The position numbers and the translations under genes were made by a program. Shown one piece after another: positions 16,138 to 18,512 of a stretch of 64,000 nucleotides of DNA. The DNA comes from Acidobacteriota bacterium (GTDB taxonomy: Bacteria > Acidobacteriota > Vicinamibacteria > Vicinamibacterales > UBA8438). Position 1 is the stretch's first letter. The number at the start of each line of letters is the position of its first letter. Location: positions 36,938-100,937 of the forward strand of contig DQNS01000122.1 of assembly GCA_015659035.1 (NCBI GenBank), written 5' to 3'. Under the pieces are notes generated by a model that did not search any database, was not told where the DNA came from, and was given only the letters and a program-made list of their open reading frames with translations.

Positions 16138-16803
16138 ATGCGCATCATGAGTTCGAAGAAGAATCGCAGACACGCTCGTCCCGCACCTGTAGTCCAGGAG
16201 CGGTCGAAAGGTATCCCGTGGCCGTTTATCGCCATCGCGGTGGCCGTCGTCGCGGGCGCCGGTCTCTACATGGCGTGGGGGTCATCGGGCCTCGCTCCCT
16301 CACTAGACGCGACCGGCCCGACCGCCCAGGCGCCCACCACCACCGCGGCGACGGCGCCAGACGCGTCGCCGACCGGCGATCCTGGTTCCATCGCGTCGGC
16401 GGTCAGCGGGACGGCGCTCACTGCCGAAGGGCCCAACGACCTGCCGATGCCGCCGCTGCCATACACATCGCAGATGAGCGGCTCGCCCGAGCAGGTGAGA
16501 CAGGCCTATGTATTCGCTGCCCAGAACCCGGGCGTGCTCGGGTACGTACCCTGTTACTGCGGGTGTGAGCTCGATGGGCATCACTCGAATGCGGACTGTT
16601 TCGTCGAATCACGCGCCGCCAATGGCGCGGTGCAGTCGTGGGACACCCACGGCATGACCTGACCGCTCTGCCTCAGTGTCGCGCGTGACGCGATGCAGAT
16701 GCATGCTCTCGGCGCTTCGGTCGCGGATATTCAGGGTGCGGTCATCACCAAGTACGCCGCCACGTACCCCACGTCGACGCCCACCCCGGCCGTGCCGCAA
16801 TAG
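16138..16803 (+). CDS. PCYCGC-motif protein, candidate selenoprotein (in-frame TGA 16660-16662 read as Sec)
   Basis: GYVPCYCGCELDGHHSNADCFVES...WDTHGMT-[TGA]-PLCLSVARDAMQMHALGASVADIQGAVITKYAATYPTSTPTPAVPQ*; frame stays open 46 codons to TAG 16801-16803 and encodes the expected family C-terminus. Confidence 0.75.
16663..16699 (+). promoter_or_regulatory. Candidate bacterial SECIS element
   Basis: Starts right after TGA: UCUGC(16667-16671)/GCAGA(16695-16699) lower stem, GUCGCG(16678-16683)/CGCGAU(16689-16694) upper stem, 5-nt loop CGUGA with G at loop position 2, 21 nt from UGA to loop. Confidence 0.65.
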
Positions 16804-16949: not shown

Positions 16950-18512
16950 ATGAAACGGACCACCAAACGCGCGCCCCGGCGGTCGCGCCGGTCCCGCCGG
17001 CCGCGAGCCGAGCTGCTCGGCAGCCTCTACGACTCCGTCCGGGAGGGGGTGTACATCGGGACGTTCGACTCCGACGACGGCACGACGCTCGGCGCGAATC
17101 CTCACCTGAAACTGATGTTCGGCTTCGCCCCCGAGGAACCGGACGACGCGGTCCGACCGTTCTCGGCCGATCGATTTGTCGATCCGCGGGCCCGTGATGC
17201 GTTCATCACGCAGCTCCGCCGTGACGGGGCGGTCAGCGACTACCTGCTGCGGCTTCGCCGTGCCGACGATAGCTCGATCTGGGTCGAGGTGACGGCCACC
17301 CTGCACCTGGCGGACGACACGGGCGGGTCCCGCATCGACGCGCTCGTACGCGACGTCAGCGAGCGGCGAAAGCTGGAGGACCAGGGCCGGGATCTCAGCC
17401 ATCAGCTGTCGCAGGCGGAGAAGATGGCGGCGCTGGGTCAGACCGTATCCGGCGTGGCGCACGAGCTGAATAACCCGCTCGCCACGATCCTGACGTGGGC
17501 GGAACGCTTGGCGGCGCGGCCGGTCGATGCCGACACGAAGCGAGGGCTGGAGACGATCCTCAGCGAGTCGGAGCGCGCCGCGAAGATCGTGCGCAACCTC
17601 CTGACGCTCGCCCGTAAGCGCAACACGACCCGGGCCCTGGTGGATCTGAACGGGATCGTGCGAGAGACCCTGGCGCTGCGCGCCTACGAGCAGCGGGTGT
17701 CGAACGTGATGACACTGGAGGCGCTCGCAAGCGGTCTGCCACAGGTGTTCGCCGACCCCCACCAGGTGAAACAGGTGCTGCTGAACCTGATCATCAACGC
17801 CGAGCAGGCGATGCTGACAGCGAACGGCCGGGGCACGCTGGTCGCCCGCACCTGGTACGACGACGCGAACGAGATGGTGCTGCTCGAGATCAACGACGAC
17901 GGTCCTGGAGTGCCCGAAGAGGTCCAGACAAAGATCTTCGACCCGTTCTTCACCACCAAGGCGGTTGAAAAGGGGACCGGGCTCGGGCTGACGGTCGCCT
18001 ATGCGATCATGCGGGAACACGGGGGACAGATCCGGGTCGCCTCGACGGCGGACTTCGGTGCGTCGTTCTTCGTCTCGTTCCCGGCGGCCGCCGGTGCCCG
18101 GCGCCCCTCGCCGGCGCCCGCACAGGCGCCGCCGCCGCAGACCGCCGCCGGGTCCGCCGTCCTGCTCGTCGAAGACGAACCGGCACTCGCCAGCGCGGTG
18201 GCCGACGCGCTGACCGACGCTGGATATCGCGTGGAGCGCGCAGCGAATGGGGAAGCGGCCCTGGAGTGCGTTGAAGCCCGGGTCTTCGACCTGGTCATCT
18301 GCGACCTGAAGATGCCGAGGCTCGATGGCCCGTCGTTCTACCGGGTGCTGTGCGAGCGCAAGCCGGCGCTGGCGCGGCACGTGATCTTCGTCACCGGCGA
18401 CGTCGCCGGGACGGACTCTGAACGGTTCCTCATCGAAACTGGGTGCCGCTGGCTGCCGAAGCCGTTCCGGTTGAACGATCTCTTGCGGGCCGCGCACGAG
18501 GTGCTGGGCTAG
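16950..18512 (+). CDS. PAS-containing hybrid histidine kinase with C-terminal receiver domain
   Basis: HisKA GVAHELNNPLATIL, HATPase G/N boxes (NLIINAEQA, GTGLGLTVAYAI), REC domain LLVEDEPALA...DLKMPRLDGP. Confidence 0.93.
   Translation: MKRTTKRAPRRSRRSRRPRAELLGSLYDSVREGVYIGTFDSDDGTTLGANPHLKLMFGFAPEEPDDAVRPFSADRFVDPRARDAFITQLRRDGAVSDYLLRLRRADDSSIWVEVTATLHLADDTGGSRIDALVRDVSERRKLEDQGRDLSHQLSQAEKMAALGQTVSGVAHELNNPLATILTWAERLAARPVDADTKRGLETILSESERAAKIVRNLLTLARKRNTTRALVDLNGIVRETLALRAYEQRVSNVMTLEALASGLPQVFADPHQVKQVLLNLIINAEQAMLTANGRGTLVARTWYDDANEMVLLEINDDGPGVPEEVQTKIFDPFFTTKAVEKGTGLGLTVAYAIMREHGGQIRVASTADFGASFFVSFPAAAGARRPSPAPAQAPPPQTAAGSAVLLVEDEPALASAVADALTDAGYRVERAANGEAALECVEARVFDLVICDLKMPRLDGPSFYRVLCERKPALARHVIFVTGDVAGTDSERFLIETGCRWLPKPFRLNDLLRAAHEVLG

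Follow-up and report, generated by a model that had tools for sequence, protein, structure and literature searches.

The window, a 64,000-nucleotide stretch of contig DQNS01000122.1 from an Acidobacteriota genome, contains a reading frame that runs for 174 codons from position 16138, meets a TGA at 16660-16662, and then stays open for 46 further codons to a TAG at 16801-16803. Does this TGA end the protein, or is it read as selenocysteine (Sec) within a longer member of the PCYCGC family? Both the frame and its continuation had been described in an earlier note on this DNA and were borne out. Automatic annotation would shorten the gene by a fifth; the predicted full-length selenoprotein is presented here instead, with the following features.

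16138..16803, + strand: complete predicted selenoprotein ORF, 221 residues with Sec at 175, based on the PF13798 score
16225..16281, + strand: hydrophobic segment, residues 30-48, FIAIAVAVVAGAGLYMAWG, mean hydropathy 1.97 over 19 residues
16549..16566, + strand: PCYCGC motif, residues 138-143
16660..16662, + strand: TGA predicted to be read as selenocysteine, residue 175, based on the TGA/Cys column in relatives
16660-16671, + strand: UPLC (UxxC) motif, Sec first
16677..16695, + strand: putative SECIS hairpin, with frozen nucleotides 16678-16692 (GTCGCGCGTGACGCG)
16801..16803, + strand: real stop codon TAG
16950..18512, + strand: hybrid histidine kinase (PAS-HisKA-HATPase-response regulator, from Pfam), conserved downstream neighbour

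Translation may start three codons later than the assigned 16138, as the residue encoded by the second ATG (16147), M4, forms an invariant alignment column, and a start at this position aligns across the family. Hydropathy analysis detected one hydrophobic segment, near the N terminus, which is a predicted membrane anchor. The N terminus preceding it is basic, and it is followed by a Pro/Ala/Thr-rich linker and then the PCYCGC domain. Judged from this order of anchor, linker, and domain, the product would be a membrane-anchored, extracytoplasmic PCYCGC selenoprotein.

With the TGA read through, the protein scored 87.6 bits against PF13798 (PCYCGC), compared to 50.7 bits for the truncated product, a gain of 37 bits. 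The match lies above the Pfam gathering cut-off of 25 bits and covers profile positions 49-151 of 153, C-terminal block included, in agreement with the earlier proposal that the peptide beyond the TGA is the C terminus of this family. Both the PCYCGC motif and the C-terminal UxxC are present.

Across 162 genomes of the order Vicinamibacterales, the family was found in 90, from which 98 copies were extracted. A single TGA was present in 37 copies (window included), always where the alignment has the leading Cys of the C-terminal CxxC, and the other 61 copies carry Cys at this position. The in-frame TGA of the window, with conserved flanks on both sides, aligns with this Cys of its homologues, as the earlier note had predicted in reading the site as UPLC, and the Cys orthologs that it proposed to look for are those 61 copies. 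Sec PCYCGC proteins are thus common in the order, being present in 37 of the 90 genomes that carry the family. Elsewhere in the phylum, six further single-TGA matches were retrieved, five of which, from other families, have Sec in the same column; the sixth (L273) proved to end in an ordinary terminal stop and was rejected. Exchange between Sec and Cys has evidently occurred repeatedly, possibly in either direction, because the label changes at least 8 times on the protein tree, with 3 changes forced by well-supported branches.

This recurrence also bears on the quality of the sequence. The source genome is a fragmented metagenome-assembled genome (MAG; 3.18 Mb, 150 contigs, 89% complete), in which a TGC or TGT could have been turned into TGA by a sequencing or assembly error. 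The same TGA, however, recurs in 36 more genomes of the order, each assembled separately, together with a linked constraint on downstream nucleotides, and this practically excludes an error of the kind the earlier note had considered; we regard it as vanishingly improbable.

Were the TGA a true stop, the protein would end at residue 174 and the remainder would be untranslated, leaving either a pseudogene or a shortened functional form. UGA does still terminate translation in this clade, as 12 of the 37 Sec genes themselves end in TGA. Against a true stop, each of the 37 copies has just one TGA, always in the same column and followed by an open frame with conserved residues, and past the real TAG the sequences of two congeneric genomes diverge immediately. 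Pooled over 16 pairs of Sec genes, dN/dS after the TGA was 0.157, a value that is if anything too high because the putative SECIS element lowers dS in this region; in the 60 codons before the TGA it was 0.088 for the same pairs. The 46 codons past the TGA are under purifying selection, the constraint that the earlier note had named as a check, and termination at residue 174 is very improbable.

Genes for selenocysteine insertion were detected in the same genome, where selB (349.8 bits), selA (526.8 bits), and selD (291.1 bits) each scored above their curated cut-offs. A tRNA-Sec gene (selC) scored 51.9 bits with the Rfam model (cut-off 47), or 55.5 bits with a slightly longer stretch, so that all four genes for which the earlier note proposed a search are present. 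The anticodon of this tRNA is UCA, within the loop CUUCAAA, and the gene reaches the contig edge; ARAGORN called no gene on this contig end, where Rfam's model finds tRNA-Sec. In order-wide searches, selA or selB was found in 37/37 Sec genomes, while both were absent from 19 of 53 Cys-only genomes, with the TGA form in 0/19 of these (Fisher p = 9.9e-6, kinship among genomes ignored). A code change or suppressor by which UGA is read as another amino acid, Cys or Trp, would fit the Cys found in relatives at this column. We nevertheless give such a reading very little credence, given the full Sec machinery including a tRNA-Sec with a UCA anticodon, the restriction of the TGA form to genomes that do not lack both selA and selB, the use of UGA as a stop elsewhere, and the nucleotide constraint downstream of the TGA. 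The selenocysteine reading instead has the UGA at codon 175 decoded as Sec by SelB and tRNA-Sec, a process that a SECIS hairpin just downstream in the coding sequence would direct. As a separate observation, selD (L015, G000:C139, frame 112-2535 +) sits inside a single 808-residue frame whose N-terminal part resembles a pyridine-nucleotide flavoprotein, VLIGGGHTHVAVLRRFG; this frame probably encodes a fusion of Ndh and SelD like those reported in PMC2398784.

The candidate SECIS hairpin spans nucleotides 15-33 after the UGA. In 35 of the 36 Sec copies that encode VARDA, codons 6-10 following the TGA are GTC GCG CGT GAC GCG, a string present in none of the 10 Cys copies that encode these residues (p = 2.7e-9); silent sites in the remaining codons of the Sec copies vary freely. 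This freezing of silent sites is a signature of a putative SECIS element. Two foldings place a G in the apical loop of a hairpin just downstream of the UGA. The first has a 7-bp stem (16677-16695) with the loop CGUGA (16684-16688); every one of the 33 distinct Sec sequences can form six of the stem pairs, and 32 of them can also form the seventh. The second has a 4-bp upper stem (16677-16690) with the loop GCGCGU (16681-16686) and places the first loop G 18 nt after the UGA. Of the five Sec copies retrieved from elsewhere in the phylum, four carry an unrelated self-complementary stretch, AAGGAGGTKCTCCTT, in which the loop G also lies 18 nt after the UGA, as it does in the SECIS element of Escherichia coli fdhF. 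The second folding is favoured because this spacing recurs in both. Folding energy was no lower than in synonymous-codon controls (mean z of -0.24) and did not separate Sec from Cys copies; the SECIS assignment therefore draws on nucleotide invariance and position. An Rfam search at this site gave no match, and in the genome itself the string was not found at a matching distance downstream of another TGA. Near-intact versions of it were seen in the Cys copies L067 and L069 (G151, G153) and L034 (G079), GTCGCGCGTCACGCG and GTCGCGCGTGAGGCG, as if these copies were recent Sec-to-Cys conversions.

Together, these data support the selenoprotein interpretation of the earlier note, as machinery, alignment, assembly, and selection all agree with it. 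The gene very probably encodes a Sec-containing PCYCGC protein, Sec insertion being deduced from the genomic sequence.

Neighbourhoods were compared by tblastn of the window genes, as ORF clustering was blurred by high-GC shadow ORFs. Of the 36 other Sec copies, 35 are followed immediately by the hybrid kinase in the same orientation, as are 44 of the 60 Cys copies with enough flank, and many copies share a sigma factor beyond the kinase and a FabA/FabZ-like gene upstream of the PCYCGC gene. Because the kinase and flanking genes are common to both, the Sec and Cys forms mostly sit at a single shared locus. Such versions at one locus in related genomes are a good system for studying Sec/Cys exchange. 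The PCYCGC protein and the kinase may also be linked in signalling.

An AlphaFold2 model of the domain, with Cys replacing Sec, had a mean pLDDT of 94.5 and placed the UxxC at a helix start, followed by helices 82-96 and 101-112. A Cys cluster, CYCGC plus Cys154, lies in the same domain. The helix would begin with a redox pair, UPLC, made up of Sec175 and Cys178, and the protein would most likely be a thiol/selenol-disulfide oxidoreductase at the outer face of the inner membrane. We consider a role in disulfide exchange, with the attendant redox chemistry, somewhat probable.

Alternatively, the Sec protein could bind or sense a soft metal and pass a signal to the neighbouring hybrid histidine kinase, instead of exchanging disulfides. 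Soft metals could be bound by the CxCGC, the additional Cys, and the UxxC, the pairing with the kinase gene is conserved among Sec and Cys forms alike, and in Parageobacillus a PCYCGC lipoprotein adjoins an Fe3+ substrate-binding protein (PMC13068155). The kinase, however, has only PAS, HisKA, HATPase, and receiver domains, with no sensor domain outside the membrane, and its pairing with the PCYCGC gene may be inherited gene order. Moreover, Sec is mostly found in redox catalysis. We therefore regard metal sensing as possible but doubtful and favour disulfide exchange.

Comparison with CcmH domains also bears on a thiol-disulfide role. Among PDB entries, the best two Foldseek matches to the domain model were CcmH domains, 2hl7 and 2kw0, both weak (E values of 0.73 and 2.4, TM 0.52-0.53 on the target); Foldseek on viral proteins and sequence searches of the PDB gave no match. 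Profile comparison with 22 CMCGTCG-type CcmH domains of the same order gave a probability of 77% (P = 2.1e-5) and a score of 34.5 compared to at most 19.7 in 30 column shuffles, and with every Cys masked the score was 24.1 compared to at most 18.3 in 60 shuffles; only this subgroup profile gave a convincing match, which shallow or mixed CcmH alignments had not done, so that its selection is a caveat. PF03918 was not among the 25 families listed for 66 PCYCGC members at E values up to 10, and the window protein matches PF13798 alone. Because the PF03918 model itself does not match, the resemblance is described as distant kinship and not as CcmH membership. Such kinship, which is tentative, and a thiol-disulfide role have moderate support from sequence and structure comparison, and the resemblance gives a family so far without assigned function a testable chemistry. 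A broader proposal, of which we are far from confident, is that PCYCGC proteins are distantly related to the thiol domain of CcmH and work at the outer side of the inner membrane, and that their acidobacterial branch employs Sec in its active pair and has a functional connection with the conserved hybrid kinase.

Two further observations concern CcmH proteins within the order. Many genomes carry a long frame of about 830 amino acids (L239-L268, e.g., L244) with a CcmH domain of the unusual form CMCGTCG...CTC, and it is this variant, not the usual CcmH, that resembles the PCYCGC domain. Most short CcmH proteins of the order (L222-L237) carry a CC pair (APCCW or similar), not the classical CPxC.

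The earlier note had known of no described Sec PCYCGC protein; such a UxxC family is in fact already catalogued. A 2026 review lists a "CYCXC family protein (hypothetical protein OS_HP4), PF13798, UxxC, one Sec" (PMC13188914), PMC9312934 also gives OS_HP4 as UxxC, and OS_HP4 was predicted as a selenoprotein in the delta symbiont of Olavius algarvensis (Zhang and Gladyshev 2007, cited by PMC13188914). The alignment of the family has one invariant CxxC only, and for this reason the UxxC of OS_HP4 must, we infer, be the same site as that of the window protein. NF041379, the only NCBIfam match, is named "CYCXC family (seleno)protein"; it scored 66.5 bits with the full protein and 69.1 bits with the domain alone, below the curated cut-off of 90, which makes the window protein a divergent branch. 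Among the papers searched, none mentioned selenoproteins together with Vicinamibacter. Overall, we conclude that the window protein is a well-supported new acidobacterial member of an already listed selenoprotein family, not a new kind, to which are added a broad acidobacterial Sec clade, its putative SECIS element, a conserved gene pair with the kinase, and the tentative kinship with CcmH.

In comparison with known systems, the window protein shares with OS_HP4 its Pfam family, a single Sec, and the UxxC motif, and it stands apart from OS_HP4 and NF041379 on a divergent branch from the Acidobacteriota that has a SECIS sequence of its own, a long linker, and a membrane anchor. The Cys-form PCYCGC proteins of the order have the same domain and the same kinase locus, with Cys in the Sec column, but lack the TGA, and the SECIS nucleotides are not conserved in them. 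CcmH/CycL/NrfF (PF03918), the thiol protein of cytochrome c maturation, resembles the PCYCGC domain in that a two-helix unit comes after a Cys cluster, with the pattern G.S...I......KYG common to both; unlike CcmH, the PCYCGC protein has a long insert between its Cys clusters and no membrane segment after the domain, and the window genes that flank it include no ccm gene.
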